From NCBI GenBank assembly GCA_003024785.1, contig PUQB01000001.1, positions 2,471,431 through 2,535,430 on the forward strand: a DNA stretch of 64,000 nt. The letters are read 5' to 3'. A model generated the notes under the pieces. It was given only the letters and a program-made list of their open reading frames with translations, did no database searches and was not told the origin of the DNA. This document shows, one piece after another, positions 25,563 to 63,430 of the stretch. Positions within the stretch are counted from its first letter, which is position 1. The number at the start of each line of letters is the position of its first letter. This DNA is from Selaginella tamariscina (Eukaryota > Streptophyta > Lycopodiopsida > Selaginellales > Selaginellaceae). Both the position numbers and the translations under genes were made by a program.

Positions 25563-25567
25563 ATAGC

Positions 25568-27052: not shown

Positions 27053-27063
27053 GGAGGAGGTGC

Positions 27064-39564: not shown

Positions 39565-39826
39565 ACTTTTATTGCGCCTCGGCGAAAAGGATCAGGAGGC
39601 TTCGTGTTATTCTAGTATATTCGCAGATATTCTAGGTATATTCTAGCATATTCTAGAATATTCTCAAGAATATTCTAGAATATATAAGCTTTTTTAATAT
39701 GCCGACTGGCTTAATATTTGCCGACCAACAAATAAATTATTTAAATTTTTAGAAATTTTTTTGAATATACTTTATAAAAAAGTTCAATAAGTTACTATTC
39801 AAACAAATCATTTTGATGTAAACCAT

Positions 39827-42800
39827 TTATCCTTGTAACACTGGTGGGTCATGAACTCTGCTGCAATTCATCAGCAAACGGTGGACCTCCATCTCACTGA
39901 GCGATCGCCTTTGTAAAAAATATGTGACGTCTGGGTTCAAGCCAAGCACACGACTGTAGACAAAATACATGTGTATACATAGTCTCCAACTTTTGCTCTT
40001 TTGAAAGGTAGAACAACTGCATGTAGGATAAGTATTAATAGTCACCTTTGCAGAGTCATTTCCTGCCGACACAATAAAAACCTCCTTCCGTCTTCTAACT
40101 GTCACTTCAACATTTCTCACACGACCTAAAAACGTCTTAGCCTTGCGGAAATTCTTCTCTTGTTCCTTAAACATTTTTGTTGGAGTTCGGACCATGCGTC
40201 CTTCGAAAGGTGGAATTGTTGTAGATCCAACTCCACGTGGTGGCGATGGTGTTATGTCCTTCTAACCCTCATCTACTCTTCCTGCCATCCCCTGTAAACC
40301 TTTCAGAACAAAGCCTGCATCCTGTAGTTCTCTGATCTCCTCACTTGTCAGCTTCGTTTCCTTGAGCACAGGCCAAACTGTTGATGGTGTTGGAACTCTT
40401 GTCTGAAGAATTTTGCCATTTGGCCGCGTGAAACACCCTGAATCTTTTGGGTAGAACCACATCATCTGTTGTACATACTCCTCATTCCCCAAGGCATCAC
40501 TGTACATTTGTTTTCCATAGAATCCTGGTGCTGACACTCTGCTGGGATAACCGATTGGTTTTCCACACAGAGCAATTCCTTCCTAATTCATCCCCAAACA
40601 CTTAACCTTAGTGGATGCTCTGATTCGTCTAATGGCCCACTTTGTTTGTGCAATCTCTCTCTCCAAAACCTCTTCGAACCTTAACCTCTTTCTCCTGTTG
40701 TTTTGGACCACCCGCTTTGTGTACTCTACATCATGTCTATGTGAACGTCGAGCATCAGACTGTTCTGTTCCTATAACTGTTCTCCTAACAGTTTGCACTC
40801 GAACGTTAGTGGTACTCGTGAACTCCGGGCTGGTCAAGTGTTCCTCGTCTTCCACTAGATTGATAATTGCTGTTGGAGATACACTTTTCCCCTCAGAGAG
40901 TTTGCATTGCACTCGTTTCAACAGAGTTTCCTTCGAAGGACCTGACCCTGTATACCTCCCTTCTATTGCCACTTTCACCTTCGCACTTTGCATAATTGCA
41001 TCGGTGAGGTCTAACATTGTCGCCTTCAGCAGTGGTACTCTTTTAGCCAATCTTGCTCTTCTTGCTCTCGCGTGAATCACTTCAGCATTGTTTGTAGTTG
41101 GAACGCTCGCGAGTCCTTCTTCTGTCATGTCTCCCAGTTCCGCCATGGAGATGTGGTCCTCATGCCTGATCCACCAAGATAGCCATGTCTTCAAAGCACG
41201 AATGTTTGACGCTCGTCCTTCCCAAAAAGACTCAAGAATTGCTAGTTGTTCTTTCTTAGATTGTTCATTTAGTGCTAGGCACGAGCAAGCTTCATGTGTT
41301 CTTCGCGATGTTCTTTTGCGATCCATTTCTTTGTCACCTGACGCAATCTCATCCGACATGAAACCAGCAAAGTTGACATTCTCCAAACCCTGTTTCTTAC
41401 AAACCTTTAGCATTGTGTTCAAGAACTTCAGCACTGCAACATTATCTTCGTGGCACATATCTGCATAAGCTATAGTCACCATGGATTTGACACTGTAAGA
41501 GAGCATTAGATAACAAAGATTAAAAAGTGATATGAAGAGTTCTTACAATGGGTCATAAAGGTGTATTCCAATTGTCGCCCAGTCTGGTATACGGTGCGTG
41601 TGGTCCAGAACAACCCATTGATCATGAAGGTCTCCTCCACTTTGACACCTTCTGATGTAGTCAACTCCTGAACTTGGTTCCTCAACTGTCATTTTGAAGA
41701 TCAGAGGCTGCTCCTCAGCACCATGCAGTTCCATCCCTGGAACACGTATGACGTGAATGAAAGGTATTGGCAACTTTGTCTTCAGCTCCAGAAGACCCTC
41801 GTAACCCTCTCTAAAGTGTGTCTCCTTCTGTCTTGATTGTGTAATACAATCCCAAGTCCTAAAGAAAAGGTCACGTCCATGTGTAGAGATCTAAAGAAAA
41901 ATACCTTTGATGGTTTGTTACAGGTTCAAGTTTTGAGAGTAAACCAGTGTACGAGACTTCTCCTTCTTCCTTGAAAGTTCTTCAAAGATGAGCTCACACG
42001 TAGTTTGAAACTCAATCACTTGTTGATTGGTTCACGGACTGCTCTTTACCACGTTGCTGACACTAGATCTGGCATGCTGAACGTTTGAAGCTGACACTGA
42101 GGGGCTGACTGGATGCTGATGAACACCTCTGTGAATGAACAACCTTGTAAAAGAAATGTCGTCTAGAAGAATGTAGTACACATAAGCCGGACAAGTGTGC
42201 ACTGTCACGACCTGATACAGAATACAGGATTCCGGATACAGGACATGGGTTGCAGGACTTTCCTACAGGATTCCGGATACAGGATATGGGTTGCAGGATT
42301 TTCCTACAGGATACTCCTACCAGGATTCCGGACACAGGATTCGGTTGCCTACAGGATATGCCACAGGATATGCCTAGAGGATAAGGGACATGTGGACTCA
42401 TCTTAGCCTCTGCATGCATGCAATCACTTTTGCATGCATGCAACCACTTTTGCATGCATGCCTAGATTAGCTCTTGGAGTTGTGAGCATAAAAGCTCCGA
42501 CCTAATTGTTGTACAATCAATTACTATCAACACCAGTCTTACTACGATCAATCTTGTCTTGTCTTGTTTCCTGTCCTGTTCCTGTCTCGCTCCTATTTCC
42601 TGTCCTGTTCCTGGATCCTGTCCTGCTCCGGGATCCTGTCTTGTTCCTGTTTTGCTCCCGGATCCTATCCTGTGCTTTCCTGTCTTGCTCCCAGATCCTA
42701 TCCTAATCCTGTCCTACTCCTAGATCCGTCCTGTTCCTATTCCTGGTTCCTGTCCTGCTCTCGGTCCTGTTCCTAAGTCAAGCCTTCATGTCCTTGGAAT

Positions 42801-43509
42801 CCTGCTCTCTTCCTGTTTCCTGGATCGTGGCTTGACATGCACTAGCAATGGCTCCTCTCCACAATGCTTACATTTCATGCCTATTACTTTGCCTGTCTCA
42901 GTTGTCTTTGCCTTCTCCACAGCACCCTTGAAGTGACATTCATTTGCTTTCTTCTCAAAAGCCAAGTAGGGGCAGGTAGGATTGATGCATTTGAGATGTC
43001 CGACACATGAACTTCAACTGACTCACGCCGGAACATGCCAGTGTGTTGTGCTCGAGTGTGTCCAATGGTAGCAGCCATCCTTGCAATTCATCTCTAAGTA
43101 CTTCTCTATGCTTTCTTTCTTTGGAGGAAGTTCATAAATGACATTTTCATTGTATATTTGCGGTAGTTCAGAGACTCGTTTAACTTCAGACGAACCAATG
43201 AGATCCTTCCCTATCTTACATTTGGAAGACACACCAGCATGGATTCCTCACGCTCCTTTGTCCGCAACCTGAACAATGGTCCTTTAGCCGGGCACAATGT
43301 GTAAAAGACAAACTGGTTTGATGCAATGCCTTCTGGTAACAACTCCACATCTTCTCCAGAACTCGCAGAAACTGACATCGAACCACATGTATATTGAACC
43401 AACAAGGAATGTTGAAAGCAGAGTGAAGATCATATTCAAACACAAAAGCATTTCCATCTTCATCGACTGGGAAATCTTTGTTAATGCCTTCATAGGTAAC
43501 TCTGGCCAT
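39827..43509 (-). pseudogene. MULE transposase with SWIM zinc finger
   Basis: Reading from 43509: an N-terminal region (MARVTYEGINKDFPVDEDG), then a Cys/His cluster (CHFKG, then MKCKHCGEEP). The solo LTR then interrupts the gene, followed by LFIHRGVHQHPV. The DDE-like core is WVVLDHTH, then WATIGIHLYDPL (41543-41640), then TIAYADMCHEDN and FAGFMSDEIAS (41340-41480). After about 300 residues the SWIM motif follows (CSCSTF, then CIHMYF, giving C-x-C and C-x-H) at about 39960-40010. The protein ends DPPVLQG at 39827. Likely introns lie near 41480-41540 and 41780-41920. Several one-base shifts (for example near 43090 and 43385) and a TAG near 40263 break it. SWIM fingers and this layout are typical of MULE transposases. 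The exact subfamily is unknown. Confidence 0.8.
42203..42837 (+). mobile_element. Solo LTR of the chromovirus family
   Basis: Same family as the LTRs at 25568 and 27064, starting TGTCACGACC and ending CTTGACA. The target duplication TGCAC lies at 42198-42202 and 42838-42842. It is longer (635 bp) because the GGATTCCGGATACAGG units, the TGCATGCATGCA units and the CCTGTCCTG units have extra copies. It is left by recombination between two LTRs and splits the MULE transposase gene. Confidence 0.95.
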
Positions 43510-43974
43510 AACAACGCAAGGAGAAAGCTCAGTGGTTTAGGAAAGCAAAGCAAAAGATTAAACACACTCTTGTTCGCCAAAAAAAATTATAATCGTTGAT
43601 AATAAATGTGAATACACTTTTGTATATAATTAATTCTACGTTACCCAGTTCACAGTGTTCTTAATGTTGTCTTCTCTAGTATCACCAATTTAATTTAATT
43701 ACTACCTTTTATGATTTGAAATATCTTCACCTTTATCAATTATTCACATATTTTAATATTAACCCCAAATATTAATGTCACATTTATTTCGTAGGGTTCA
43801 TTGTTTTCATTGCGGCTAGAGTTTTTTTGGTAGATAGAGTTTACTGTTTTCATTGCGGCTAGGGTTTTTTCTATCTCAGATCTGATATCTGAAATCTCCT
43901 CCAAGGGACTTGAGAGTAGCGGCGCCATCCATTTCGAGTCGATTCGTGCAGCGCCCAAGTAAATCAATTGAGAT
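43510..43974. other. 5' leader region of the MULE transposase
   Basis: AT-rich up to about 43750, then a short duplicated block (TAGAGTTTACTGTTTTCATTG-like, near 43795-43865). The minus-strand frame 43967-43740 is open, with an acidic N-terminus, but resembles nothing known. It may be a 5' exon or leader. Confidence 0.4.
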
Positions 43975-44790
43975 TTTTGTGCCGATTTAAATTGTCGGCA
44001 CCATCCTGCTCAGTCGGCGGCCACAAGATATGTGTAATTTCTTTATTTTATGATTTACGGCTCAAATAATTTATTTTTCAAAGTTAAAAGGGTCTTAGAA
44101 TTTGTGCCGTGTGAGAGAGACGGCACTATCCTGGTTCAATCGGTAGCCATAAGGTATTTTCAATTTGTTTATTTTTTGCTTTGCGGCTCAAGTATCCGTA
44201 TCACAATATTTTATTTTTCAGAGTTAATGGGTCTTCCCATTTGTGTCGGAATCCCAGAGATAAAGGGTCTTCCCATTTGTGCCGACTGAGAGTGACGACA
44301 CCTTCTTGCTTAGTCGGCAGCCACAAGGTATTTTCAATTTGTTTATTTTTTGCTTTGCAGCTCAAGTATCCATATCACAATGTTTTTTTTTTTTTTCAGA
44401 GTTAATGAGTCTTCCCATTTGTGTCGGAAGCCCAGAGATAAAGGGTCTTCCCATTTGTGCCAACTGAGAGTGACGGCACCATCCTGATTCAGTTGGCAAC
44501 CACAAGGTATTTTCAATTTGTTTATTTTTTGCTTTGCAGCTCAAGTATCCATTTCACAGATTTTTTTTTTCAAAGTTAATGGGTCTTCCCATTTGTGCCG
44601 TCTGAGAGGGACGGCACCATCCTAGCTCAGTCGGCATACTTCTTACATTATCTCTTCAGTGCTGTTTGAGAGGGTCGGCACCAACCTATCTCAGTCGGCA
44701 AGATTTGCTCTTTTACTTTTCTGTGCCGATTGAGAAGGTCAGCACCATCTAGCTTGAGTCGGCAGCCACAAGGTTAGTCATCTTTGATTT
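43975..44790 (+). repeat. Tandem array of exon-like units with inverted motifs
   Basis: Four to five units with a period of about 177 bp, the last spaced wider. Each has a T-rich tract ending TTTTCAG (or TTTTCAA), the text AGTTAATGGGTCTTCCCATT, then GTGCCGACTGAG facing CTCAGTCGGCA-type arms, then CACAAG followed by GTATTTTC. The borders look like splice acceptors and donors. The first unit is most decayed. The array ends at TTTCCAG just before the ATG of the ParB-methyltransferase gene, so the units could be alternative 5' noncoding exons. Confidence 0.85.
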
Positions 44791-44851
44791 TTATTTTTTA
44801 TTTTGTCTCCTAATCAATTGACTTGTGTGTTTGCTTTCCAGAGTTTACAAA

Positions 44852-47800
44852 ATGGTGAGAGCTTCAAAACGTCTACTAGAGACTGCGCCTGATGAAGAGC
44901 CACGGGAAGAGAAGAGGATATCGAAGCACAAGCAAGGCAAGAGAGGAGAACCATTTAATGTAGCAAAGGAGGATTCTCCAATGACTCAATCTAAAGTAGT
45001 ACCAATTGAGCAGGAGCAGCCTCCATCAACCATCACAAATTTCTTGGAGAGCTCGTCACAGTTGCCTCCTTCATCCGCTGAGGTTACAGTCCTGAACAAG
45101 CAAGTGCAGATGACAGAGGCAGTTGAAGCTAGCAAGGACGACTTGGAGGAGGCAGTCAGCAAAAAGAGAGGCCGCGGGAAAGCTGATCCAAAAGGCAAGA
45201 AGGTGAAGAGCGATAAGGAGCCGAAGGAGTTATACTTCCTGATGTGCCCATCTGTAAAATGCATTCGGACGAGGTGGTTTGACGAGTGAACCCAGAGGAC
45301 TTGGACAAGCTGGTGTCATTGTTGAAGAAGGCTGGTTATCTACGCAACACGGCCTTGTTCATTCTGTCCATCGGAGATCCACTCACTGCTGAGGAGCTAT
45401 CGGAGCTGTTGAAGGACACGGTTCAGTACGAGCAGCATCAATTTTTTGAGCAAGCTCTTACTCAGCCGGAGTACAAATAGTGGGCTTCGAGGCTCTCAAA
45501 CCGGAAGTTTAGCTGCTAGGACGGGAACCATAGGCTACAGGCTTTGCAAAAGCTCTATCGGGAGGATGCAGAGGACAACCAGTGATGTGCTATTCGCGAT
45601 CGAGTTTCATCTCCACGGAGAACCTCGACAATCTTCAACTGGTTTCGATGTTCCAATTGATAAACATGTGAGTATTTTCTTTTCTTTTCGTTAAGGGTCT
45701 AGATTTATAGTTTCATTGAACAGATCTTCAGCACCATCTATGGAAATAATGCTACCACATATTCTCCTCGCTGTAAAGGTGGTCTGCACTAGTACCGAAG
45801 GAACTCAGAAAATCCTCGAGTCACTCACGAAGGTTGATTGTCTTGAGGTGCGGAAGTGGAAGGAGAGTGCAATAGGAAAGACGGCTTGGCATCCTCTTCC
45901 AAACCTGATCTGCGCAAAGATCCTTTTCAAGGTAACCTCCAATTTGATTTATAGGAAAGAAGTCTTTAACTTATTCTATGTGCAAAACGAGATCGACAAT
46001 AATCTCAACAAAGCAGTCACCAGTGCTAAAGGCAATCCACAGCTTGAGCTGAACCTGAAGCAGCTAGTGTACAAGAAGCATGACAAGCGTATGCACAAGT
46101 TCCTCTCTATCATAGATCCAGAGTTGGGGGAGGAGTGGTTCCAGAAGGTGATGAACATCTCTCATAAGCAATGTCGTTAAATGGGCATTGAGAAGCTATA
46201 CGCGATGTCAAAGGCAAAGATTTCAAACATGCTGCGACTCCGATACTTGAACAAGCTCACTCGTCTCGAATCCAAGGCAGAACAACAAACACTTGGGCTA
46301 CCAGGCATGCAGGACAAAGAGTGGATCAAGTGGTTCACCTTGGACTTATATTGGAAGGCTGTGCGCGAGGAAGCCATTCAGATCCTTAAGGGGTTGCGAG
46401 AGGATGGTGAAGAAGTTGGAACAGATGTCGACTTTATGAGCTGGTTTGACGAGATGCAAACTCGGAGCGAGTGCCTGGTCTTTCAGCCCTTCCATGATTG
46501 CATACGGTTCACTTATTCGATGGAGCCAAATGAGTTTTTGGAGCTTGAGGAGTCTGCATGTCGGATGATATGGAGGTAAACTTTCATTCCAACATTGCTA
46601 TTGACTAACTTTGTGTTACAGGTTCATACTGGCGAAGAAAATGGCACCGTCTCAGATGATGAAGCTGTGGACAGATCATACAAACGAGCCTCACATGTGG
46701 TCGAAGAGCAGAGGAGCTCTAACACCGTTCAAACGGGAGCATGTTCCATTCTGGCTCGACTGTCCATCGCAACAGCCACCAGCTTGGGAGAGCTCACTAT
46801 TCGACGTGCATGGCAATGATCTTCCAGCGATTGTTTGGGAGCCGGACAAAGTAGAGGCTATCAAGAAGAGCAAGATGAAGAAGACGGTGCGGAAGACAAC
46901 TACACCTACAAAGGGATCGGAGCGGGACCAAGCTCTTCTACAGCACCTCCGTTGGCAATCGACTTTACAATCAATGAGGTGTAGCCACTTGTAACTAGTT
47001 TGGACATCAAGGATGACCTGATGACCTTCATCCCGACACTGGCTGCATCCCGTGGATCCTACGACCTGGCTGTGTGCGATATGGAGGAGATGAGTAGGTC
47101 TTTCTTCGAGTCGGGTGCTTCCCAGACAGAGGTGTACACCAAGCTCCGACAACAGGTTGACAAACTACATACGGCTGAGTCACAAACGGTGTTCTAGGAA
47201 GTGGTAGGTGAATACAGCTTCAACCTCATCATCCTCGACTTGCCCAATGAGCTTGTATATGGAGGTGCTAGCATCAACAAGGACATTGTGTAGCTAGATC
47301 CGGTGAAGTTTGAGGAGGCCTTGCAGTTCAGTGGAATGCACTTGGCAGCGAGTGGTTTCATGGTCGTCTTTGCGAGTTCTCCTTCTGTTTCGACAATGAT
47401 TCAGGCGGCGGCGGTAATCAACTTGGAGGTTGCAGGGACTTACAGCGTCTACTGTGCATGAGGTTGGGGATACCGTGACAAAATTAAGGTAAGCTAGCTA
47501 TTCAAGTTCAAGTTTAACTTGGTCTATGTTTTAGCCTTTATAATATATTCTTCTAGGATAGTTCAAAATCGGTGATGAGTGCATAGAATTGTCGACAAAG
47601 GCATCTAGACCGTCGGATTTATGCGTATCCTAACCTTTGAATTTCAACTTTCAACGGTAAAGATGTCATCTTCTTCGTTTCTTTCACCACGTGCGTCAGA
47701 GACAAGTGATGAATGGATGTAACATCAGACACAATCAATTTAATGAAGTGGGTGTCTCAGGTTCATCAGCACCATCATCACATTGCCGGAGCTCTTTCCA

Positions 47801-48323
47801 AATCCTCCATGGTTCCTGAGAATGTTCCACTCTTGGACAAAGATCTGGAGCTTTACAGGATAACTTGTTGGTTCTCTTGGTGCTGCAAAGCTCTGAGAAG
47901 AAGTCGAAGAGGCCAAACCCTCTGGCGTTGACGAACACGATCGTCGTCGATACCACTGACCGTTTTTAGGAGGCTTGGTAAGGAAGTACTTTACTTTTTG
48001 TTTATCCTAATGGAAGTTTGTGTAGGATGATGATTCAACCGAAGAGTATTCGACTTATGCAGCTTTTGATCGAGCGTCTCAGTAGACCTGGCGACCTAGT
48101 CTGGGATATTAGTTTCGGAACCGGATCATCATTGTTAGCTGCCGTCAAGCTCGGAAGGAATATTATAAGAACCGAGAAGTGTTTCGAACTCTCTAGGTTG
48201 GCAACAAACAAGCTCGCAGAGAACATTAGACCAAAAGAAATACCTACTCAAACACCTCCATGTCCAAGCCTAGCTAGTGGTTCGAGAACTACAGCTTTAC
48301 TTAAGATGAAGAAGAAACTTTAG
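44852..48323 (+). CDS. ParB-like domain fused to beta-class DNA methyltransferase (element 1)
   Basis: Starts MVRASKRLLE at 44852 with a charged tail containing KKRGRGKADPKGKK. A ParB-like region follows: PSVKCIRTRWF, then NPEDLDKLVSLLKKAGYL, and near 45510 DGNHRLQALQKL, the D-G-x-H-R signature of the ParB/sulfiredoxin fold. A long helical middle (45716-46579) follows, then a GT-AG intron (about 46577-46620). The methyltransferase begins near 47210 with the motif IV position NLIILDLPNE. It then has the C-terminal block PKSIRLMQLLIERLSRPGD, WDISFGTGSS and AAVKLGRNIIRTE (48040-48180), very close to the QKP-PGD-DPFxGSGTT-LGR pattern of permuted N4/N6 methylases. DLPN in place of D/S-P-P-Y suggests lost or altered catalysis. 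Many one-base shifts and some stops interrupt the frame. It probably needs array-derived 5' exons. Confidence 0.65.
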
Positions 48324-48533
48324 CTAATGTGTATTGAGTAATAAATTAAGCTAATATAAAAAAGAATAAGGTAGAAATACAACAGTTTTAATAGAATTTT
48401 TTTTTCCGATTGAGGATCAGAAAGAATATTCTAAAATATTCTAGAATATTCTAGAATATTCGAGCCCAGGCCTCCTGGGCCCCAAGCCTCCAAAATGACG
48501 ACACTCACTTTTATTAACAAGAAGATCAAACAT

Positions 48534-50559: not shown

Positions 50560-50745
50560 ATTTGATTTTGCATCTTCCTTCGATAGGTTTTCTTATACTG
50601 GATATTGCTGCCCTATCCATTGTACAAAGCTTGCGTTACCCATTTCGCTTCTTTGTAATACTAATCTATCTATTTCTGTGTAATTAGATGCCATGAACGC
50701 CATCAATGCGATCATCTTTGCATATGGACATGTAATATAACACAC
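50560..50745 (+). pseudogene. Kinesin exon 2-3 fragment, reversed
   Basis: A copy of 11830-11960 in opposite orientation: TTGCTGCCCTATCCATTGTAC and TTTCTGTGTAATTAGATGCC, then ACCGCCATCAATG-like text ending GCATATGGACA at the splice donor. No open frame is left. It completes the set of kinesin fragments that scatter across 33-51 kb. Confidence 0.9.
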
Positions 50746-51337
50746 ACAGAGACACACATACCCGTACATATGTATATATATGGCTACAACAATAAAGAAA
50801 AAGTACTTGGATGCACGTTGTAACTAAAGTGGGCATGATACGTGAAAATGGGAATATAAAATAAATTACTAATTAATACTTAAGTTTTAATTATTAATTA
50901 ATCATTTAATTAATATGTAATTAAGCCTTAAATATTAATTAATTAATTAATCCTTCAATAACCTTACTTAGTAAGGAATATTCCTAAAATATCTTAGAAT
51001 ATTCATATTATTCTAAAAATAGTTTACAATAATGAAAAATACTATCAAACATAATTACAAATGAAATCATTTTCTTATCAACATGTTAATTTTTTATAAA
51101 TACTTTCTTCTAACATACAAGAAATCTCTCATTTTGTCTAAATCATCACTCTCCGGATTAATCAAATCATTTTGGTCAATATCTTGATGTTGTTGCCACC
51201 ACTTAACACTCTCACGAATGCAATTGGGAGTTGCCATCCTTGTTAATACATAAGATGTATAAGAAGGTCTGCATAAAGGCTCATCTAAAAATGACGTTCC
51301 TTAAGAATAATATTATAAAGCGCCCGGTTGCTATCCT
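50746..51337. other. AT-rich spacer before the HAD gene
   Basis: TTAATTAAT-type runs at 50860-50960, then AATATTCC and TTAGAATATTC units near 50985-51030 that recall the AATATTCTAG units at the MULE ends. No gene. This may contain the left border of the second assembly. Confidence 0.4.
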
Positions 51338-52068
51338 TCATTTTATAAAATTCAAATCACGAGAAAGAAAAGCTTCAGGAAATGTATGATACGGTGGATA
51401 CTGCTCACAAAAATTTTCGAGATTCTTCTTTCTGAGGCACGTATCCAAGTAGTTCACTAGCTCATCCATGATATCGGTATCAGAATATGGATCGAAAGTG
51501 ATTGGATGAATACAAGCAATGTTTTGGTTGAGCATAGCCTTCTGAGGAGAGTCGTCTACTACTAAGATATGTGCATTCTTCATTATCCTTAAGCGACTGA
51601 TCTCCCCATGAGTCCCAATTATTCTTTCATTCTTGAAGAAGTATGGCTTGCTTTCCTTTCTTATATTGTGAAATTCGAGAGGTTTATAACATATTCGCTG
51701 GTCAAAAATCCAATCTTTACGAATCACCTCTTCTGCAACACTACAATGTTTCTTAAGTAAATTCAACAGCGGTGTTAAGTTATGAATCTGCATGCATGAC
51801 CAAATCCCCACAAGCGCACCCATCTCCTTAAGCTTTTGAAAGAGACGATCCAACCCTGGACGAAAAATAATATCATATCGAAATTTACCATGACAAGGAA
51901 TGAAATCTCCTTGTTTGATTTCTTTTTTCTATCCTCGGGCCTTTGTCGATGAAGCAGAACACCATTGACATCCAACAACATATGGCCATGAGTAACATGA
52001 GATAGCGTTGCCTCTTGAATACTTTGCAAATCACTTGTTTGCTCCCTTTCACATTTATCCGTTGCCAC
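51338..52068 (-). CDS. FCP1/NLI-interacting-type HAD phosphatase-like protein
   Basis: An FCP1-homology HAD fold. Motif I reads LLDVNGVLLHR at about 51955-51990. Asn replaces the second Asp of D-x-D-G, as in a plant D-x-N-G subgroup, which questions phosphatase activity. FRPGLDRLFQKLKEMG and VGIWSCMQ give motif II, and HILVVDDSPQKAM gives the motif III/IV region (about 51545-51575). The tail YPPYHTFPEAFLSRD ends at 51338. A run of six T on the plus strand (51923-51928) shifts the frame by one base between RKK and EIKQGDFIPCHGKF, after which the fold reads on normally. The true start is probably further upstream (frames to about 52350) but I cannot fix it. It lies 702 bp downstream of the ParB-methyltransferase gene on the same strand. 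Confidence 0.75.
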
Positions 52069-52769
52069 TATTCGTTGCCTATCCCTTCATCATTTAATTG
52101 TACATCATCCTTACAAGATTCAGATATTGCATGCTGAAGAAATTGATTTCGGAACTGAAGCCAATAAAAATGATGATGAAAAAACTGAAGTGGCCCCCAT
52201 GGTAACGATGTTTTGAGCTGCATTATTATCCATTTCCTGCATGAACTCTGTCATTCTGACATGTGGCACAAGAAATTGTCGCCAAACCCCTCTCTTACCT
52301 CATGGCAATGCTGAAAATCCATGTTCTCAATTGTTTCATTACATCTGCAAAATGATAATTAGCTGACCTTAAAATTATCAAGGTATATTATTTACCTTGT
52401 TAATGTGTGACCCATGTTTGAACTAAAAGCTTCATTAATCCTTGAGAATTTATTTTCTGTACAAATATAAAAGAAATATACAAAAATGCCTTATGTTACA
52501 CTCATTTACAACTATTCGTCACTCTAACATTCATAATTCTTCTTCGCTATTACCTTCTGAGTGAGGAAGAAGGTCTAAGCCGCTTGTGAGATGGTTCAAG
52601 ATCTTCCATCTTCTATTGATGTTTCCATGGGTAGTGTGGAATGTTCTGTACTCCTCGAGATAACTTCCGGTCTAATATCTGATTGAAGTTCGTCCAGACT
52701 CCGACATTGAACCAGATTCGTCTTCAGAGCTATCGCACTTATCTGGAGGGAACTTTCTCAAATACTCCT
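52069..52769. other. Junction between HAD and ParB-methyltransferase genes
   Basis: Probably holds 5' exons of the HAD gene (weak minus-strand open pieces near 52080-52360) and the 3' tail of the methyltransferase gene (open pieces such as DELQSDIRPEVISR near 52650-52700). A possible acceptor-donor pair lies near 52340-52400. No independent gene. Confidence 0.4.
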
Positions 52770-55601
52770 TTATGGATTCGTTGGGGTACTCAGTTGAGAA
52801 CCCTCTATCCACTTGTTCAGGTCCTCAACCATGGTCTTATCCTTTTCAACGGCAAACACACATGTATGCCGAAGGTAACACTCCTTCAAGACGGACCCCC
52901 TAGTGCAGTAGTCAAAAACCCACGCATCACTGTGAGGACCCCTGATCAAGTTGACGATGCTCCGTGCCGCTTGACTTGTAATGTTTGGATAACGTACATT
53001 GCCGAATACGTCACTCACCTATCGGTGTATCGGATGGAGGTTCAGGGCCGTTGGAGTGCAAACAGATGCCTGGCCAGTCATTTGGAAGCTTGAAATTGTT
53101 TGGCGCATTCCTAACAACCAAGTGAACAACGTATCAATGCACTTGGGATTAGCATCGTTCATATAAAATCCTGTCCAACGATGTCTATTCTTCTTGGCGA
53201 AGGCGAAGGCAAAAGTATCGGTGACATGAGCAAGAATCAAGAAATAAATACCTGAAAAAGTAGGTATCAGTGAAGAGCGCAAGCATGAATTCAATAATAA
53301 ATACCTTCTATGTATATGCTTGCACGGCTAAGTTTCTCCACCAGATCCTCTAGTGCCCTATCTGTCGAAAGATTTTTTGACACCCGCCGATCCATCACGA
53401 ACAATTGAAACGGTTTCCTACAAGCAGTGATGTTACCCCATAAAGTCTCCGAATCTAACAACAAACATCTGTAGGGCTTGTCGTGATTCGTAGCATCCTC
53501 CTTTATAAGGTTCAATTCGGTTCTCCGCTGCTGAAGGACTGCCATAAGAGAAGGCGTCATCCCAATGTTCTCCTTTTTGGCGTTGGCGTGCAATAGATTC
53601 TTGCCTAGATCTTCCGATTGGTTCACCCATTCGACAAGCATATCATCGTTCGTCACATGCAAATATTTGCTGACCTCTTCATATGTTGAAGTCGAGGTCC
53701 AACCCAGTTTGTGGCAGTGTATTCCCAACCACTCCTTGAAATGCCTGACCGTCTTCAACTCCATTGCCTTGAGATGAAAAGGAGAGGTTGGGCTGCTGTT
53801 ATTAATTTGTAGTTTGCCATCGATCACCAAATCAGCCAAGACTTCCATCTCCTCCATCGTTGTTCCATTTAAAGGCTTCAACCATGTGAGCTTGAAATCG
53901 TTGTCTACATCCTTTGTAGATTGAACAGACTTAGCCTTCGGCGTCTTACTGGGTTTCTTTGCAGACTTTTCTGAGGGCTCCCCTTCACTTGTCTGCTTCT
54001 TCTTCAGTGTTCCTTTTGAAAAGGATTCCATAATCCCCAACCATTTGGCAAAGATCCTATCTTCGGGGCAAGAAATCAACATCATCAGAAAGGATGTTTC
54101 CTTCCCGCCCACCTGGGCAAAATCAACTGCTGCAATTTCTTCAACTCTCTGAGAAAAAGACAGATTAATATACCGGCGAGATAAATCCCGCCCAAACAAT
54201 TTGCTTACCCGGTATTCCGCAGATTGTGTATTCCCTGCGTAGCTCTTTGTGGTCGCTGAAGAGATTCCCACACGGCTCGCGTGTGTTTAAACTTCTCCCA
54301 TATTTTGCTGTTGTAGTGGTTGGTGTCGGCAGCGTCCCATTCCGCCGATAACTTATGGTACTGCTCGATTGTGAGATTCGGCTTAGCTAAAAACGCCGAT
54401 CTTTTTGTCAGCTTCTCACGGGTATGCTCGGAAAGTTTTGTTGCCATCGTTCCTTTGTTGTGTTCATCGAGAAGTCGTTGGGCTGCCGTTATTGTGTGCT
54501 GGCCACTAATGATGTAGTACTTGATAGATTTTTATTCTCCGTCTGAATCTTCATGAGTTGTTCTGGTGTTGTGATCCAGACTTTGTCAGCGCCCTTCCTT
54601 CTTTCATAGTATGGACACAAAACAGCATTATGTGGAACGGTATAAGAATTGTCGTCCTTCATCTTCTCCATGAGCTCAGCTACACGTTCCTGGTTGAGTG
54701 GCCTGTAATTGAAGTTTGGGTTGACGCTGCAATATTTAACCCTACAAGGATAAATCTTTCATCCAACATCATTTCCTTGTGACTTATTGCAGCATGAGAT
54801 GCCACAGGTGCAGCTGACAAAACGATTGATGATTTTCTTTTGCGATCCGAATCAACATGTGTGATCCCCGACTGCAGCTGTTCTAGTGTTCTCGGCACAC
54901 TCTTCCAGCTCCCAAAGCTTCCTAAGCAAATTGAACGTGATCTGTAGAGAACCTGAGACCGAGCCACCCTCTCAATCTCCCTTATGATGTCGCTGTGTTC
55001 TTCTTCAATGTGAAGAGGGACGATTGCTCCACTTGTGATTTTCTGTATTGTGAAGCAATATCTCCTGACAATACACCTACTCGATGAGTCTGAAGATCTT
55101 CGAAGTAGACATCCAGATGGATCCCCTCCATAGATGGGCTTTCGTTGAGTTGAAGAAGAACTCCAAGGTCAACATCATTAGTGAACACGTGAACATCATT
55201 ATCCACAAGTCGACAAAACCACCCGATTAATGTTGTAACTGACGACCTCTGGATCCGAGAACGTGACATTGGATGGAACAAGGCATATCTGTCGAGCATC
55301 GTCCAATCTGGGTTCGCAGCCTGCTTTCGGTGCTTGACTAGCGAATCTACTTTCCATTGTTTTGCTTGTCCATGAGATGTGACAGAGGTTAATTTGACAG
55401 CAACCATGGTTGCTCCAATGCGCTTCCCATTTATCTTAAAATATGGCCAAGTTGATTCCAGAATCCCCCTGCCCATCTCTTCTCCTGCTCTTGTCTTTAA
55501 TGTCACCTCAATTCCACATCTGAATACAAAAATTTAGTTCAAGTATCCGAGTATAACAGATTTTATTTTAATTCTTACCCAGAATTTGACGACGACTCCA
55601 T
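52770..55601 (-). CDS. Second ParB-methyltransferase-like protein (element 2), diverged
   Basis: Starts MESSSNSG at 55601 and an intron follows (about 55520-55577). The N-terminal part (EVTLKTRAGEEMGRG, 55000-55510) is unrecognised. The ParB-like part reads YPCRVKYCSVNPNFNYRPL, then ERVAELMEKMKDD (54660-54740), and after a variable stretch ISGQHTITAAQRLLDEHN (54455-54510), equivalent to the G-x-H-R-x-x-A core. A middle with an SKTPKAK-rich linker (53930-54000) follows. The methyltransferase-like part has LFVMDRR at the motif IV position (about 53390), then the block DVFGNVRYPNITSQAARSIV, WVFDYCTRGS and VFAVEKDK (52840-53018), mirroring the PK-PGD-DxFxTG-E pattern of element 1. Catalytic residues are lost. 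Frame shifts lie near 55030 and 54755 in short A-runs, and others near 54510 and 53020. Less conserved than element 1. Confidence 0.55.
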
Positions 55602-55940
55602 ACTAATGACTCGATCTCCTTGTTTGATTAAATCGTCCTTCTGCAAAATAATACACTATGAATACAAATTATATAAAAACGCACACACACTTGTATAAAC
55701 CCGAATATACAAAAATAATACACAGAGAGAAGTGACGTAATTAACTGTCCGAAGCTCACATTTGTGTAGTGCAAAAAAAGATAACATTTCGTTTTAGAAC
55801 CACCACAAATGTGAGCTCTGGACAGTTTTACATAGATTTAGCTTTTACTCGAAATATTATGATAAGATAGATAAATGATAAATAAAAAATGAGATATGCA
55901 ACTTATATATACTAAACATATATATTCACATGGAAGGTGC

Positions 55941-56160
55941 GGCGGGATTAATCTCGCCACCCTTCAATGCCTCCTGAAAGAGTGGGCGGGATTAATCTCG
56001 CCACCTTTCTGGAGGCCTTGAACGGGAGTGCGGAATTAATCCCACCCTTCTCGTCTCAGAGAGAACTGGGCAGGATTTATTTCTCACACCCCTTCAGTGA
56101 CTCCAGAAAGGCGGGATTAATCTCGCCCACCATGTAAGGGATGGTGAAATTAATCCCACC
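55941..56160. repeat. Left cluster of 18-bp palindromes
   Basis: Six copies or near copies of GGCGGGATTAATCCCGCC, for example at 55941, 55985, 56029, 56110 and 56143, spaced about 33-44 bp. Many have the variant ATTAATCTCGCC. They lie about 340 bp upstream of the start of the second ParB-methyltransferase gene, where its promoter should be. Confidence 0.95.
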
Positions 56161-56219
56161 ACCCTTCTCAGTTCCCTCCATTGGTATTTTGTAAACCTTT
56201 TTCGTCTCAGACAGAGTTA

Positions 56220-56295
56220 GTAAAGGGGCTTAGCGTGTGTGCGAGAGATAAAATTAATAAATAAAAAATTATACAGATAAAAACACACACATATA

Positions 56296-56346
<51 letters not shown>

Positions 56347-56723
56347 GTATGTATAGGAGTGTACGTGTGTGTGCAAGAGATAGATAAATAAATAAAATTA
56401 TACAATACTGGTACACATAATATATGTGTATATATGTACATAGGTATATATATGCGTGTATATGTATATCGTGTGTATGCGTGTGAGCGAAACAAATAAA
56501 ATCATACAGATAAACAAACACACACACACACATATATATACACAGGAGTGTGCGTGTGTGTGCGAAAGATAAAACTAATAAATAAATAAAATTATATAGA
56601 TAACACACACATATATATGTGTGTATATAGATATATAACCCATAAGAAGAAAGAGAGAGTCTGTGAATATATAAGCATATATATAAAACTAGTGTTGTAT
56701 ACTATTTGTTAATATGCATTGAT

Positions 56724-56767
<44 letters not shown>

Positions 56768-57070
56768 GTGTAGCAGTGTGCGTGTGTGGGAGAGATAGAT
56801 CAATAAAAAAAAATTATATAGATACTGGTACACATAATATATGTATGTATATATGTATATAGGTATATATATATATGTGTATATGTATATCGTGTGTATG
56901 CTGTGTGAGTGAAACAAATAAAATCATACAGATAAACAAACACACCCACACACACATATATATACACAGGAGTGTGCGTGTGTGTGCGAGAATAGATCAA
57001 TAAATAAAATTATACGCACACCTATACATATATACATACATACATATACACACACCCACACACACAGATC
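56220..57070. repeat. Tandem duplication of a microsatellite-rich unit, about 420 bp
   Basis: The text GGTATATATATG...GTATATCGTGTGTATG, then ACAGATAAACAAACACAC and GGAGTGTGCGTGTGTG, occurs near 56440-56570 and again near 56860-56990. A related third part lies at 56280-56400. The repeat contains (TA)n, (CA)n and GAGAGATA runs. Long reading frames here are low-complexity translations. Confidence 0.8.
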
Positions 57071-57289
57071 TCACTGTGTGCACAGCCGCCGCCGTCTTGA
57101 AACCCTAAGAATATACCTAAACCCTAAAGGAATTAAATATATATATTAACCCTAATAGAATATTCCTTCTGAGAATATACTTAAACCCTAAAAAGAATAA
57201 AATATAGATTCGCCCTAAACGAATATTCTTTCATTATATTATTAGCGCGTGCGTGTGCGTGGGTGTATCACATACACCCCAAAAATATA

Positions 57290-58185
57290 AATCATGCAGG
57301 GATTTAACATGTGTGTCCATGAGAGTGTTAAAGTTTCATGTGTATCAATACATACATACACACATAGTTTTATACACATAGACATACATACATATTAGTA
57401 CATAATATTAGAGAGACAGAGTACATATTATGGATCATATTGTGTATGTTTGAGAGAAGAGAGACAGTACATATTAACATGGATCATGCATGGTGTGTAT
57501 GCATGAGAAAGAGAGAGAGTGTTAAAGTATTAAATTCATACACATTGCATATATTAATACACATATATACATACACACGTGTATACACACAGACATACAT
57601 ACATATTACATGGGTTTAGGGTTTTGGATTTAGGATGGATCATGCATGGTGTGTATGTATGAGAGAAGAGAGAGTGTTGAAAAATTATTTTTGTACACAT
57701 TGCATATATTAGTACACATGTATACTTACACATATTATACACAGATATACATACATAGTATATGAGAGAAGAGAGACAGTACATATTATGGATCATGCAT
57801 GGTATGTATTATACACACAGACATACATACATATTAGTACATAATATTAGAGAGACCGAGTACATATTATAGATCATGCATGGTGTGTATGTTTGAGAGA
57901 AGAGAGACAGTACATATTAACATGGATCATGCATGGTGTGTATGTATGAGAGAAAGAGAGAAAGTACACATTATACATACAGAGTACACATATATACATA
58001 CACATGTGTATACACACAGACATACATACATATTACATGAGTAAATTCATTTGTTACATATTAGGGTTTAGGGTTTAGGGTTTAGGGATGGATCATGCAT
58101 GGTGTGAAGAGAGAGTGTTGAAAAATTATTTTTGTACACACATGTATACACAGGGTTTAGGGTTTAGGGTTTAGGGTTTGTCCCA
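57290..58185. repeat. Tandem repeat with GGATCATGCATGGTGTGTATG units
   Basis: About six units containing GGATCATGCATGGTGTG, with flanking GAGAGAAGAGAGACAGTACA and CATACATACATATTA text, at about 57481, 57637, 57790, 57869, 57924 and 58090. Spacing is irregular (55-155 bp). Telomere-like repeats are embedded in it. Confidence 0.8.
58062..58180. repeat. Interstitial telomeric repeats (TTTAGGG)
   Basis: Three to four perfect TTTAGGG units at 58062-58087 and four more at about 58152-58180, with further degenerate ones at 57613-57635. They carry the Arabidopsis-type telomere sequence, on the G-rich strand. Confidence 0.95.
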
Positions 58186-58418
58186 ACAAGCTTAATATAA
58201 ATATTACACATGTAAATTCAATGTGTTACATACACACAGATTGAGTACATATATCATACATGCGTTGAACATGATGTTTTAATAAAGAAGCAACATATTT
58301 CTTCAGTTTTTTTAGGGTTGTGCATGTGTGTGCATATGTGTTTTTGTAAGTTCTGTAATGCGTGTGTAAATTTATGATTGTGTTTATATATGTGTGCAAA
58401 ACAAACATCGAATAATTA

Positions 58419-59170
58419 AGAAAATAATATTAATAAACACACTATGAACATATTTTAAATTATACATAATAATATATGATTTTATCTAATATATAGCCAT
58501 ATATAGTTTTAATAATATATATTAATTTAATATTGATAAAAAGGTTTAACATTGAAATATTCTTGAAATAATAAGAAATTAATTGAGAAAATCCCATTAA
58601 TATATACAAATGTAAATTAAGTACTCAAATAATTAACTAAATTAATTATCATAATCATGTTTAATATTGGAATATTCTTGGAATAATAAGAAAATAATAA
58701 AGAATATCCCATTAATATAAAGAAGATTAATTACTCAAGTAATTAAGGAAATGATATTAATAACACACTATGAACATATTTTAAATTATACATAATAATA
58801 CATCATTTTATCTAATATATAGTCATATATAGTTTTAATAATATATATTAATTTAATATTGATAATAAGGTTTAACACAGGAATATTCTTGAAATAATAA
58901 CAAATTAATTGAGAAAATCCCATTAATATATACAAATGTAGAATAATTACTGCAATAATTAAGAACAAGACTAATTTAATTATGATAATCAGGTTTATAT
59001 TAGAATATTCTTCAAATATTAATAAAATAATAAAGAATATCCATTGATACTAGGAAATGAAAACTAAATACTCGAGTAATTAAGAAAATAATAATAATAA
59101 ACAGACTTATGAATATATTTTAAATGATACATAATAATATATCAATTTATTTATTGTATAAGTATATATT
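58419..59170. repeat. Three tandem copies of a 332-bp AT-rich unit
   Basis: Units start near 58419, 58751 and 59082 (each has CACTATGAACATATTTTAAA or a close variant, then CATAATAATATAT). The first two include GGTTTAACA and ATATTCTTGAAATAATAA. The third is cut short. No coding content. Confidence 0.85.
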
Positions 59171-59766
59171 TATATATATATATAATATAAATATACTTGA
59201 ATACTAAGAATGTAGAATATAGTCTAAAATTTCGTAATATTAAACAGCTTGAATCACTTGAATAACATTAAATGCAATTTTAAAATACTCATTAGAACTG
59301 GAGAGTATATATGTCAGAGTGTCGGATATTTGTGTCAACTCATCTTAAATTTTATTTTCTGTTCTTTTTAAAAAAATTGAATTTCTGACATATGTATTGT
59401 CGGTCTGACATGTAAATTTGAAAATGCATTTAATTTCCCACTCAAATTCAGATTGGTTCTTTCTCCGGCAAGGGTTTCTTCATTTCTGTATTTTTCACTC
59501 TTTAGATCTTCTTTTTTCTTCATAGTGATAATCTCAGGAGCGAGATTAAATTGGGTGCTATTCTTTATAGGAAAGCACGGCGCCTTCAGTGCTGTTTACA
59601 AGTAAGTATTATAAACAAATTTAAAAATACTTATAAAGATTCACTCTCTTACATTCTCTCTTAAAATTACAATTTAGGGGTTTAGGAATGCATTAGGATT
59701 ATAATATATTCCGTTAGGGATTTATCCCGTTTAAATATCCTTTTAACTTAATATTCTAGGTTAACG

Positions 59767-60236
59767 GGCGGCGGGATTAATCCGGCCATTTCTTTTTCGC
59801 CTCTTCGAAGAGGTGGCGGGATTAATCCCGCCACCATCTCTCGGGCAATGCTTCTCCGCCACTGAAAAGAGTGGCGGGATTAATCCCGCCGATAACCTTC
59901 TCAACTGATGAAGAGTTACCAGAATTTATTAGAAAGAGTTGTCGGCGGGATTAATCCCGCCAACCATTTTAGGAGGCAGGGAAGGGGTGGCAGGATTAAT
60001 CTCGCCACCACTTCCCTGTTTTAAAGATTTGGGGACAGGATTTATCCCGAGATCTCTTTGAAATCATAGTTTTGGAGAGAGTTATGTGCGGGTTTAATCC
60101 CGCCACCCATTCCCCGTCGTAAGAATTGTGGGCGGGATTAATCCCGTTGACTCTCTCCGAAGGGTTGAGTCGGCGGCGGGATTAATCCCGCCGACCGTTC
60201 CTCGTCGGAGGGATTCGTGGCGGGATTAATCCCGCC
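59767..60236. repeat. Right cluster of 18-bp palindromes
   Basis: Ten copies or near copies of GGCGGGATTAATCCCGCC, at 59767, 59815, 59873, 59944, 59989, 60034, 60086, 60131, 60175 and 60219. The spacing is mostly 44-58 bp, with one gap of 71. Five are perfect palindromes. The spacers differ from each other. The cluster lies about 200 bp upstream of the DUF7869-like gene. Confidence 0.97.
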
Positions 60237-60423
60237 CATCAGTTGTATTAATCAAACATGAGATATTATCTCTAAACATAATTATGTATTATTGCATATG
60301 CATATTATTAAGTAACCGTAATTCAGATTTCTTAGAAATATTGCATAAACAGATATCATAAATAATACAATTATTTATGTGCAGGACAATATGTTTAATA
60401 CTGGAATAAAGTATGTCTTCTTC

Positions 60424-63400
60424 GGAACAACGAGATAGTTGGCACTGGAACTGTGGAAGTTCGAGATAATAATGCATCATGTCACAATATTGCCCAAGGA
60501 TCTTGTGTGTACGTATGGGTGAACACCATTTACAAGCATGTTGAGGTTCTGGGAATGGAATTTGAGGAGGGTTCTCCTGTATTGTGGAATTTGGATGAAG
60601 TCAAGGCTGACACAGAATATGTAGAGTCACAAACAAATAGTAGCACGAGTTTACCAGATGATGGCTTCTGCTGTGATGGATGAGGTGATTCTCTTTCTTC
60701 GTGAGATTGAAGTCGGAAGAGGCATCATCACAGCTATAAATCCAATGGAAGCAGTGTCAGAAGAGAAACTAGGTCTTCGGGTGTAGTTGTGACAGAGGTT
60801 TCACCTAATGGCACATTGTATCCTGGATCCCTCGTGAGGTGGCGAACATCTGAATTAAGACGGCAAGATGGTTCAACATATTCTGGGTTGGATTTCAATA
60901 ATAACAACCCGGAAGAACAACTCATATTTGAAGAGGTTCCTTGCATTGGTCCTATTGTAAGAAAAAGGCGATTCATGGGTTGTAGATCTTCCCCTGCAAG
61001 TTTTAGCAAGAGGGTAAAGATGGATCCTACATCTTCCGAAAGTGTTACGAGCATTTCCACGATTGACTGTTGCAAGAAGAAGTGTTGTCAGATGGCAGAC
61101 CGGAATGAAATTACCCAATGTAGACATGTCTTTCGTATGCTCACCCAAAAGCAAAGGCATGAGTTTGTATATGCTGCACTAACTGGGTGTATTAATGGAA
61201 TGGCCTCGGACACAGGTTATCAGAGTACATCCATGGTATTTAATAAGGTGGCCATCTGCTTCAAAGCTTGGTACAGTATATACGGGATCCCAAAGACCAC
61301 ATTCTACCGTCGGAGGGATGAGTGGCTAGATGGAGCGCGAACCTCAGTTCATGGGAACACTCGCTTGGTCAAAACCCGCTCTCACATCATGGCAGCCATA
61401 GAGATACTCAAGGCTTTTGTGGAAGCAAATGCAACAGGATGCCTCACAAATGCCGAACCACAAATGCAGGGGTCAGGGAAAATCTCAAGGTTTTGCCTTC
61501 AATCTACACTCAATTGAAGCTGTGTGAACATGTGAACAAGTGCCTCAGTTTGATGGGGCTCCAAGCAATCTGCACTGGTACCTTCAACAACATATGGAAT
61601 ACTCATTTTAAGGATGTGGAGATTGCAAAACACTCTAGCTTTTCCAAGTGTGACACTTGTACATCATTGAAGGCTGCAGAGGCTTGTGCAAAAACCTTGG
61701 TGGAGATCACTGCCATTCAAAAGAAGATGGAGGCCCACATGATTGCACAACAAACTTGCCGGTCTCAGTACTATGCACACCGCATGCTTTCTGTGTCACG
61801 CCCATTAGAGTACCTGTGCTTGATCCATGACAAGATGGATCATTCAAAGACCAGCATTCCAAAGCTTTTTGCAACACCAAAGTGCCTTGGAAATGTATGA
61901 AACTTCCGATTTCATTGATAGGTGTGCTAACACATGGACACGGTTGTGAGTCATATGGACACTTTTCACTTCCACATTGGTCTAGCGACTCCAATTTCAC
62001 TATTGGGTCGTTAGCCATGTGTTTCAGAAACTTTGAAGCCCACTCACAGACAAGTCCTATCAGTGATCTCAAAGTGAAGAAACAACACCTTCAACCTTTA
62101 CATAATGCTCTCATGAACACGTCTGCACTTGAGGCTACTTGGGAATATGAGAGGCATTGTCAACAGCCTGCACAGAAAACAGATGGCCCTGTTGAGAGTT
62201 CTGGTTCAGTGGAGGGATCTAGCTCAAATAGTGTACATGTGTCCTCAACATCAAATAAGCTTCCTCGTCATTTGCTTTTACAGATGGATAATTGTGCAGG
62301 CGAGAACAAAAATAGGTAAATCATTTTACTTAAGGGTTTCTCAAGCTCATACTTACTTTTATTTTCTAGATATGCGCTAGCATACTTGTCAATGCTTGTT
62401 GCCAAAGGTGTGTTTGAAACAATCACGCTCAGTTTCCTTATGGTTGGTCACACTCATGAAGATATTGATGCGTTCTTCGGCAAGGTCTCCAACTCTACAA
62501 AAAGGACAAGTGCACTTACTTTACCGCATATGATGAATCTTTTTGAAAATTGCATCTCCAAAAAAAGTTGTGTTTTGCTTGTGACTGAGGTGCCAGACTT
62601 CAAAAAATTTCTCAAGGAGTATACAAAAGAAGGGAGTGATTCTTTAGTTGGTCACCTTGTGCCGCTACATTCTTTTTCTCCATACGAGATGGTATACCTA
62701 TTATGCAATACAAGTTACGGCCATCAGAGCAGGAGTGGTTACCGAAAGAGGGCTTAATGCTCTTCAAAAGTGGAGAGGATGGAAAGCCACTTCTCCCAGA
62801 AGGACAACCAGACCCTATTCCATTGAGTGCCCAGCTCAAGGAACAAGAGGTTATTATTGATGGCCTCAAAAAATATGTGGCATGGGTTCAAAAATCGATG
62901 CCAAAGAATTCTGATAAGGCAACTGGTTACTCAGAACTATATAAGCATGTGGTCGACTATTGGGAGACTGTTGTTCGAGAGTTAGAAGGGCCTACTGTCA
63001 CAAGTACAGAATTGCAACACCCTTTTTGGCCTAAAACAAGGTGGCGAGAGGAGATTGAAATGACATCACTAAGCACAGACGACATAGAAGCCAGTAGTGA
63101 TGTGGAAGTGCAAACCCCACACTTTGTTGGACAAAGGAACCAAAAACCTAAAGCATACTTTGATTGTTACAAGGATCTTCAAAAACTAATGATGGTCCTC
63201 ATTACTCCAGATGTGTCATATAATCAGCCTATTTGGATGGGTCAAATTATCGACACACCTGAAGTAATCACGAACAATAGTATGGTTAAGGTTGCATGGT
63301 TCAAACCACACAAAAGGCGACACGAGAAGGAGAGCGAAAGATATAATGGATGCCTAGAGAAAACATGGTCTCCTAATCAAAAAGACCCAGCATGTTTTAT

Positions 63401-63430
63401 AAATGTTAAATCCATTCGATATGGGTGTGT
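60424..63430 (+). CDS. DUF7869-like putative DDE/RNase H-fold transposase
   Basis: An N-terminal piece (IVGTGTVEVRDNN, then VEVLGMEFEEGSPVLW) begins near 60430. It is followed by a Cys-rich stretch (CCKKKCC), then a helical part (HEFVYAALTGCINGM, IPKTTFYRRRDEW). The core has IHDKMDHSK (61820), LLQMDNCAGENKNR just before a GT-AG intron (62316-62370), and FLMVGHTHEDIDAFFG (62430-62480). The Asp in DKMD, the Asp in MDN and the H-x-H-E-D are the likely metal site. This pattern matches proteins now labelled DUF7869 (name from memory), which I take to be a transposase or integrase relative. The C-terminal PIWMGQIIDTPE ... VKVAWFKPHKRR resembles a BAH/chromo-like fold. One-base shifts lie near 60660, 61470, 61890 and 62665, so the start and exact joins are uncertain. 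Confidence 0.65.

Follow-up and report, generated by a model that had tools for sequence, protein, structure and literature searches.

Two DNA transposon families of Selaginella tamariscina with a ParB-like accessory gene and a private motif cluster beside the transposase

In a stretch of 64,000 nucleotides of the Selaginella tamariscina genome (assembly GCA_003024785.1, contig PUQB01000001.1, positions 2,471,431 to 2,535,430, here C1:2471431-2535430), we found two elements from two families of high-copy, autonomous-type DNA transposons, each with an accessory ParB-type gene beside the transposase gene and a cluster of short motifs private to the family. Element 1 resembles a Mutator-like element (MULE), and element 2 encodes a DUF7869-type transposase. 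We tentatively propose, with a probability of about 0.42, a self-recognition like that of the VANC proteins of Arabidopsis VANDAL transposons. The accessory ParB-type protein would bind the clusters of its own family at divergent promoters, much as ParB binds parS and VANC binds VANDAL motifs, and would keep the copies of that family expressed against host silencing. We infer that binding to the cluster would be the work of the accessory protein and not of the transposase, and that this protein would spread and lift silencing.

The whole stretch is referred to as the window. The genome searched contained 300,702,823 bases (300.7 Mb) in 1,391 contigs, and the regions and copies examined elsewhere in it are named L011, L012, L029 to L033, g1 to g10 and g8b.

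Element 1 is a single mobile unit with a central motif array

The features of element 1 were as follows (TSD, target site duplication; ORF, open reading frame):

39574..48506: whole of element 1 (8,933 bp), a MULE-like transposon (9-bp TSD; uninterrupted paralogous repeats)
39607..39727: left end, with AGAATATTCT-type repeats followed by TGCCGAC sites at 39700 and 39719 (sequence)
39827..43536, minus strand: transposase pieces, comprising a zinc ribbon-like piece, a middle part and a SWIM-like CxCx10CxH (ORFs; Pfam matches below threshold)
43976..44796: central array, lying between both gene starts and made up of the inverted pairs TGCCGACTGAG ... CTCAGTCGGCA (sequence; recurrence in gene-chosen copies)
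44852..48323, plus strand: ParB-methyltransferase gene (Pfam, PHROG and PDB matches for the methyltransferase; ParB by eye)
48404..48464: right end, TTCCGATTGAG, then AGAATATTCT repeats (at the place of TTCCGATTGAG, the five other copies examined have an exact TGCCGACTGAG close to their right end)

An exact 9-bp TSD, ACTTTTATT, at 39565-39573 and 48507-48515 fixed the ends of element 1, and two paralogous copies of the surrounding host repeat, which read straight through the insertion point, supplied the empty site. The TSD and the two uninterrupted repeat copies thus place the transposase, the array and the ParB-methyltransferase in a single mobile unit of 8,933 bp. An earlier note, made from the letters of this DNA, had described a SWIM-type transposase on the minus strand, a ParB-methyltransferase on the plus strand and an inverted-motif array between them; the ORFs, the array and the TSD bear this out, and the start at 39574 that it gave was exact, as the 9-bp repeat ends at 39573. 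A second copy, L029, has a 10-bp target duplication, and both lengths lie within the 8-11 bp of MULEs. Below the Pfam cut-off, the transposase pieces matched a SWIM domain (E 0.016) and a zinc ribbon (E 0.018), and matches of these two kinds were all that came up when the ORFs and the stitched pieces of a decayed copy were scanned for a Pfam MULE transposase domain. Since none reached the threshold, we call the element "MULE-like."

The landmarks of the accessory protein are DGNHRLQAL (near 45525), a conserved middle part, a motif-IV-like DLPN (near 47245) and the S-adenosylmethionine (SAM) motif I GTGSSLLAA (near 48105). Its methyltransferase part matched Pfam N6_N4_Mtase (4.3e-7), PHROG 67 (2.3e-8) and MboIIA in the PDB (3.2e-4). 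The SAM motif I and the C-terminal fold of a beta-class N6/N4 methyltransferase were both found, with GTGSSLLAA in the window copy and in all five other copies examined. All six copies also read DLPN in place of the catalytic [DNS]PP[YFW], at a position set by eye beyond the Pfam match. Protein database searches, with about 8,000 candidates scored each, returned a single relative, for element 1: a Selaginella moellendorffii protein that is 39% identical to the query across 21% of its length. For element 2 they gave no relative; no homologues were found in viral contigs or in bacterial and archaeal contigs.

Copies of element 1 were sampled by gene. A genome search with the middle exon gave at least 1,344 candidate places, 150 of which were scored. 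Among the matches listed, identity was 92-100%, eight had a stop in the matched stretch, and many lay in 294-codon open frames. The five of the 150 scored places that we examined were all on the plus strand and had long open frames, and they are thus not a random sample. DGNHRLQAL was present in each of the five, as were DLPN and GTGSSLLAA. With up to one mismatch, TGCCGACTGAG occurred 15, 1, 12, 15 and 15 times per copy. The array was found in four of these gene-chosen copies, and the fifth, L030, was without the entire upstream part. In the window, all eight matches of TGCCGACTGAG at this threshold fell inside the element 1 array. The array units were spaced by about 129-138 bp in L029, L032 and L033 versus about 174-179 bp in the window and L031; the differing spacing and constant motif suggest turnover of the array with retention of the motif. 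L029 and L032 were 99.7% identical over 4.4 kb and are therefore recent copies.

Some further features of the array were observed. In the unit at 44456-44498, both arms were altered together (TGCCAAC / GTTGGCA) with the inverted pair kept, which paired CpG deamination could also produce. The array units (43976-44850; L029:4200-5340; L031:1-960) contained a donor-like CAAG|GT and an acceptor-like CAG|AGTT at about the unit period, and the array resembled repeated exons of a 5' untranslated region (5' UTR) with introns, running up to the start codon of the ParB-methyltransferase. The exon-like parts of the units fold into hairpins.

Element 2 carries palindrome clusters at two promoters

The features of element 2 were as follows (TIR, terminal inverted repeat):

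50811..63432: element 2, TIR transposon, from its left end to the cut by another repeat (copy-against-copy comparison)
52770..55533, minus strand: ParB-like gene (ORFs, profile and copy comparison), consisting of an N-terminal exon, a ParB-like part with YYIISGQHTITAAQ (54238-54758), a 331-codon ORF and a degenerate methyltransferase-like tail (52773-53018)
54175..54192: single palindrome, with two mismatches, within the coding part of the ParB-like gene (the same in all 8 copies compared)
55941..56160: palindrome cluster A, upstream of the ParB-like gene, with 6 sites that have 1 to 6 mismatches each (sequence)
59770..60236: palindrome cluster B, 10 sites, 5 of them perfect, upstream of the transposase (sequence)
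60399..63432, plus strand: DUF7869-type transposase (Pfam DUF7869, 1.5e-24 and 5e-13, two ORFs)
51338..51928, minus strand: NIF/FCP1-like phosphatase gene, part of element 2 (Pfam NIF, 1.1e-8)

The earlier note had placed a palindrome cluster at the start of each of the divergent genes of element 2, and clusters A and B confirm this. The window contained 14 palindromes with up to three mismatches, compared with none in 100 shuffles. With up to five mismatches there were 16, one of them in the ParB-like gene (shuffle mean 0.5, maximum 2 in 20), and all 16 fell in element 2. Pairwise identity among the 16 cluster sites was 0.82 in the core versus 0.34-0.36 in the 13-bp flanks, so the cores are not simply a leftover of recent duplication. 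Of 28 core changes, 18 were C>T or G>A. As for the palindrome at 54175-54192, coding constraint alone may account for its identity across copies.

Genome-wide, the 18-bp palindrome had 27,128 exact copies, compared with none for the same pattern read backwards. At about 13.8 kb per copy, this number of sites extrapolates, very roughly, to some 2,000 copies of element 2, or about a tenth of the genome. The first 100 of the 27,128 places formed 11 groups, all on C1, and element-2 genes adjoined the palindromes in 10 of the 11. Six copies (g1, g5, g6, g7, g8 and g10) had both genes and both clusters, g2 and g9 had the ParB side, and g3 and g4 had the transposase side; g4 also held NIF and middle pieces and a masked stretch. 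The eleventh group, C1:2071249-2072468, lies just outside the left end of g10, at the edge of the examined DNA, where its surroundings cannot be judged. The flanks of g6 and g7 are in common, so the two look as if a single insertion had been duplicated. Counted over both clusters, the exact sites of the complete copies numbered 12 (g1), 25 (g5), 7 (g6), 7 (g7), 9 (g8) and 17 (g10). In the 261.5 kb of DNA examined, window included, all 279 sites with up to three mismatches lay within 1.5 kb of element-2-like DNA (mask 168 kb), in regions that had been picked by the palindrome and with the eleventh group counted only through its close neighboring element. The diverged copy g9, with about 56% amino acid identity in the middle part, kept 17 sites at up to four mismatches.

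Gene and motif cluster thus recur together in sampled copies of both elements, the co-occurrence that the earlier note had proposed to look for. It had also considered that palindrome clusters might lie mostly away from such genes, which is not what 10 of the 11 groups show, and that other copies of the gene might lack an array. Four of the five element 1 copies do have the array, and none was seen beside a diverged gene in L011, described below.

The left end at 50811 was common to six copies at the exact base, and another two copies began no more than 4 bases from it. Complete copies at other places measure about 13.6-14.8 kb and have the TIR ATGCA(C/A)GTTGTAACTAAA(G/A)TGGGCATG. Read by eye, 4-bp duplications were TTAT (g6 and g7), ATAA (g8), ATGT (g4) and ATAT (g1, where the last base of the end is missing); by the same reading g5 and g10 showed no clear duplication. 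At 63432 the window copy is broken off by another repeat (63428-64000), two copies of which were also seen in g9. Of the 10 groups that have genes of element 2, 8 included the NIF gene, which g3 and g9 did not.

The ParB-like part of element 2 seems best kept by selection

We estimated the ratio of nonsynonymous to synonymous substitution (dN/dS) between the copies and the window copy of element 2. Pooled values, taken from aligned stretches of at least 85% identity, which lowers them, and from copies that are not independent, were lowest in the two ParB pieces (0.19 and 0.16) and the middle ORF (0.24), against 0.63 in the methyltransferase-like tail. The NIF gene gave 0.91, the N-terminal exon 0.59 (48 codons only) and the transposase pieces 0.21-1.02. 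Several stretches of diverged copies agreed, with 0.17 and 0.16 for ParB in g9, and with 0.18 for ParB, 0.18-0.22 for the N-terminal part and 0.24-0.31 for the middle in g8b. By these estimates, selection looks strong on the ParB part and weak on the methyltransferase-like tail, and the ParB-like part seems to be the portion of the accessory gene best kept by selection. The NIF gene, by the same measure, shows almost no constraint.

The methyltransferase part of element 2 had no significant profile match in any library. Motifs I and IV were unrecognizable in the window copy (LLLDSETLWG and DYCTRGS), LLLDSETLWG lying within the 331-codon open frame, and g2 likewise read LLLDSETLWG. The predicted structure of the 331-amino-acid ORF alone was unusable (mean pLDDT, the predicted local distance difference test, 40). 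The label "ParB-methyltransferase" that the earlier note gave to this gene is therefore not confirmed: its likeness to ParB is no more than suggestive, and no library supports a methyltransferase part. A domain common to the N termini of the two element 2 genes was considered and dropped (shuffle p 0.08).

The two accessory genes are weakly linked

When the element-1 ParB profile was compared with 511 window ORFs, the best match outside element 1 was the ParB exon of element 2 (E 0.29); with the full element-1 profile, this exon came only second outside element 1 (E 3.6). Between the two ParB parts, a shuffle test gave p 0.016, and hhalign gave a P-value of 0.077 and a probability of 0.7%. A relation of the methyltransferase parts was rejected (shuffle p 0.36, no profile match). 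The ParB parts are thus linked weakly, and the similar layout may be convergent. This is too little to sustain the idea, put forward in the earlier note, of one module handed between elements.

A diverged element-1-type gene was found at L011:6400-9730 on the minus strand, with fragments of 31-44% identity, DGNHRRVAL, DPPI and a motif I; it may belong to an older element or be a host gene. A further weak ParB-like match (36%, E 0.001) was seen at L012:7635-7793.

What the clusters may be for

Several observations weigh against the VANC-like proposal. The ParB part of element 1 was recognized by eye from DGNHRLQAL, and no library match reached the cut-off in the window copy; in element 2, no library match reached any curated cut-off, and GxH[R/T] was likewise read by eye. 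Beside the diverged L011 gene, no array was found in L011:6500-9730, which covers the gene and a few hundred upstream bases; element-2 DNA begins just upstream, so its upstream part may have been lost. Element 2 was sampled by palindrome and not by gene. In the more decayed g8b, about four sites were seen by eye, with the center shifted (CAGGATWWATCCTG), and symmetric compensation within the palindrome was not significant (14 observed; permutations averaged 10.1 and reached at most 23). A dN/dS of 0.44 was obtained for the middle part of g9 (300 codons), and other stretches, below 75% identity or in g9 and many of them crossing frame shifts, gave 0.34-0.71 or saturated dS.

The main rival, especially for element 1, is that the clusters are sites for the element's own transposase and that the ParB-type gene is an unrelated passenger. 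TnpA and MURA have binding sites at the ends of En/Spm and MuDR. Element 1 has its TGCCGAC motif just inside both ends besides the array, as suits a transposase, and the accessible text of PMC10398659 provides the TnpA and MURA precedents. For element 1 alone, transposase binding and the VANC-like proposal appear about equally probable. In the six complete copies of element 2, however, the palindromes lie at two promoters, away from the TIRs, with no site of up to three mismatches inside the element within 3 kb of its ends, and a passenger gene would not be expected to hold a dN/dS of 0.16-0.24. Taking both elements together, we consider transposase binding somewhat unlikely. That the clusters are instead promoter elements bound by host transcription factors would fit their promoter-proximal positions and the heat-shock-element-like repeats at the ends of element 1. 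Such factors would hardly explain why both motifs are limited to their own element within the window, or why the palindrome is limited to element-2-like surroundings in the examined DNA, which was picked by the palindrome; we regard this explanation as improbable.

Two enzymatic or transcript-based explanations seem weaker still. The splice-like signals of the element 1 array could mean that it acts in RNA, its units being repeated 5' UTR exons whose hairpins regulate the ParB-methyltransferase transcript. In the four units folded, the inverted pair does form a stem (z -2.4, -1.7, -3.0, -1.7), but such a pair would be expected of protein sites too, fewer units of the window copy keep both splice-like signals, and the reading is inapplicable to element 2, which makes it very unlikely. 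The earlier note had also suggested marking, taken here as methylation of adenine or N4-cytosine by the ParB-methyltransferase in its own array. Motif I is intact in all six element 1 copies and the N6_N4_Mtase matches are significant; motif IV nevertheless reads DLPN in all six, whereas the diverged L011 relative reads DPPI, and window element 2 has neither motif in recognizable form and a weakly constrained tail. Marking by methylation thus finds little room, and we give it hardly any credence. With the catalytic motif altered in element 1 and both motifs unrecognizable in element 2, base methylation is probably not part of the mechanism, and binding would be the likelier activity if the proteins act.

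A wider form of the VANC-like proposal is that two unrelated DNA transposon superfamilies in one plant each built self/non-self addressing from a ParB-type clamp, a dead methyltransferase and a private parS-like cluster, so that a partition-style complex serves as an anti-silencing device in families of which one may make up about a tenth of the genome. We think this unlikely as a whole.

Relation to known systems

According to PMC5735166 and PMC10398659, the noncoding parts of a VANDAL MULE contain clusters of motifs private to it; the VANC protein that it encodes binds to these, and silent marks are lost as a consequence. The resemblance to VANDAL/VANC noted earlier has held up: private clustered motifs lie beside an accessory gene, and in both elements a short private motif is clustered in noncoding DNA. 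As far as those sources go, the likeness extends to a MULE-type element with an accessory gene (element 1), to short private motifs in tandem repeats of noncoding and terminal parts that differ between families, and to turnover of repeat units. Element 1 shows the VANC anatomy in its intergenic array and inside both ends, and element 2 at two promoters. Unlike VANC, a DUF1985 protein, the accessory protein here is of ParB type, and the Pfam scan of the pieces tested gave no DUF1985-type match. The motifs here are inverted pairs or palindromes, whereas those of VANDALs, in the text available, are arrayed in one orientation; and here a DUF7869 transposon has the same layout, with anti-silencing proposed from sequence.

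The same accessible text describes sequence-specific transposon anti-silencing for VANDALs, with TnpA of En/Spm and MURA of MuDR as further examples that act on their own element with loss of methylation (PMC10398659). The proposal for the Selaginella elements shares with these an element-encoded protein acting on its own element; it differs in that the sites of element 2 are not near the ends and that a separate accessory gene exists. Phage ParB-N6/N4 methyltransferase fusions (PMC12704722) have, in the part of that survey available, the same two fused domains and a link to mobile elements, but in the elements described here the catalytic motif is altered. The survey covers eukaryotes, and its main text contains neither "plant" nor "transpos." Capture of TET/JBP by several DNA transposon lineages (PMC12730594) and of DNMT by retrotransposons (PMC5890265), as described in the accessible parts of these papers, similarly places an accessory epigenetic-type gene in unrelated elements; here the enzyme class is another, looks degenerate and comes with a motif cluster. 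Among the papers listed on ParB, methyltransferases, anti-silencing and plant transposons, titles and opening lines of abstracts yielded no description of such elements, and a literature search on DUF7869 found no paper.

If the VANC-like proposal is true, these elements would represent a second, apparently independent solution, of ParB type, in two superfamilies of one plant. Transposons would then seem to escape silencing quite generally by way of clustered motifs for self-recognition, and the question would become open to tests that draw on defined sites of 11 and 18 bp and on a very large number of natural copies.

Minor features of element 1

A CCTGTCC-type repeat lies between the transposase pieces of element 1 (42223-42774) and also at 25566-26080 and 27062-27557; it was not at the corresponding place in L029. 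The AGAATATTCT units at the ends match the consensus of perfect heat-shock elements. By this consensus the whole window contained seven perfect heat-shock-element matches (shuffle mean 1.4, maximum 4), five of them at the ends of element 1 (39607-39685 and 48416-48464). All four heat-shock-element matches in L029 were likewise at the element ends, and element 1 is possibly a heat-inducible transposon.

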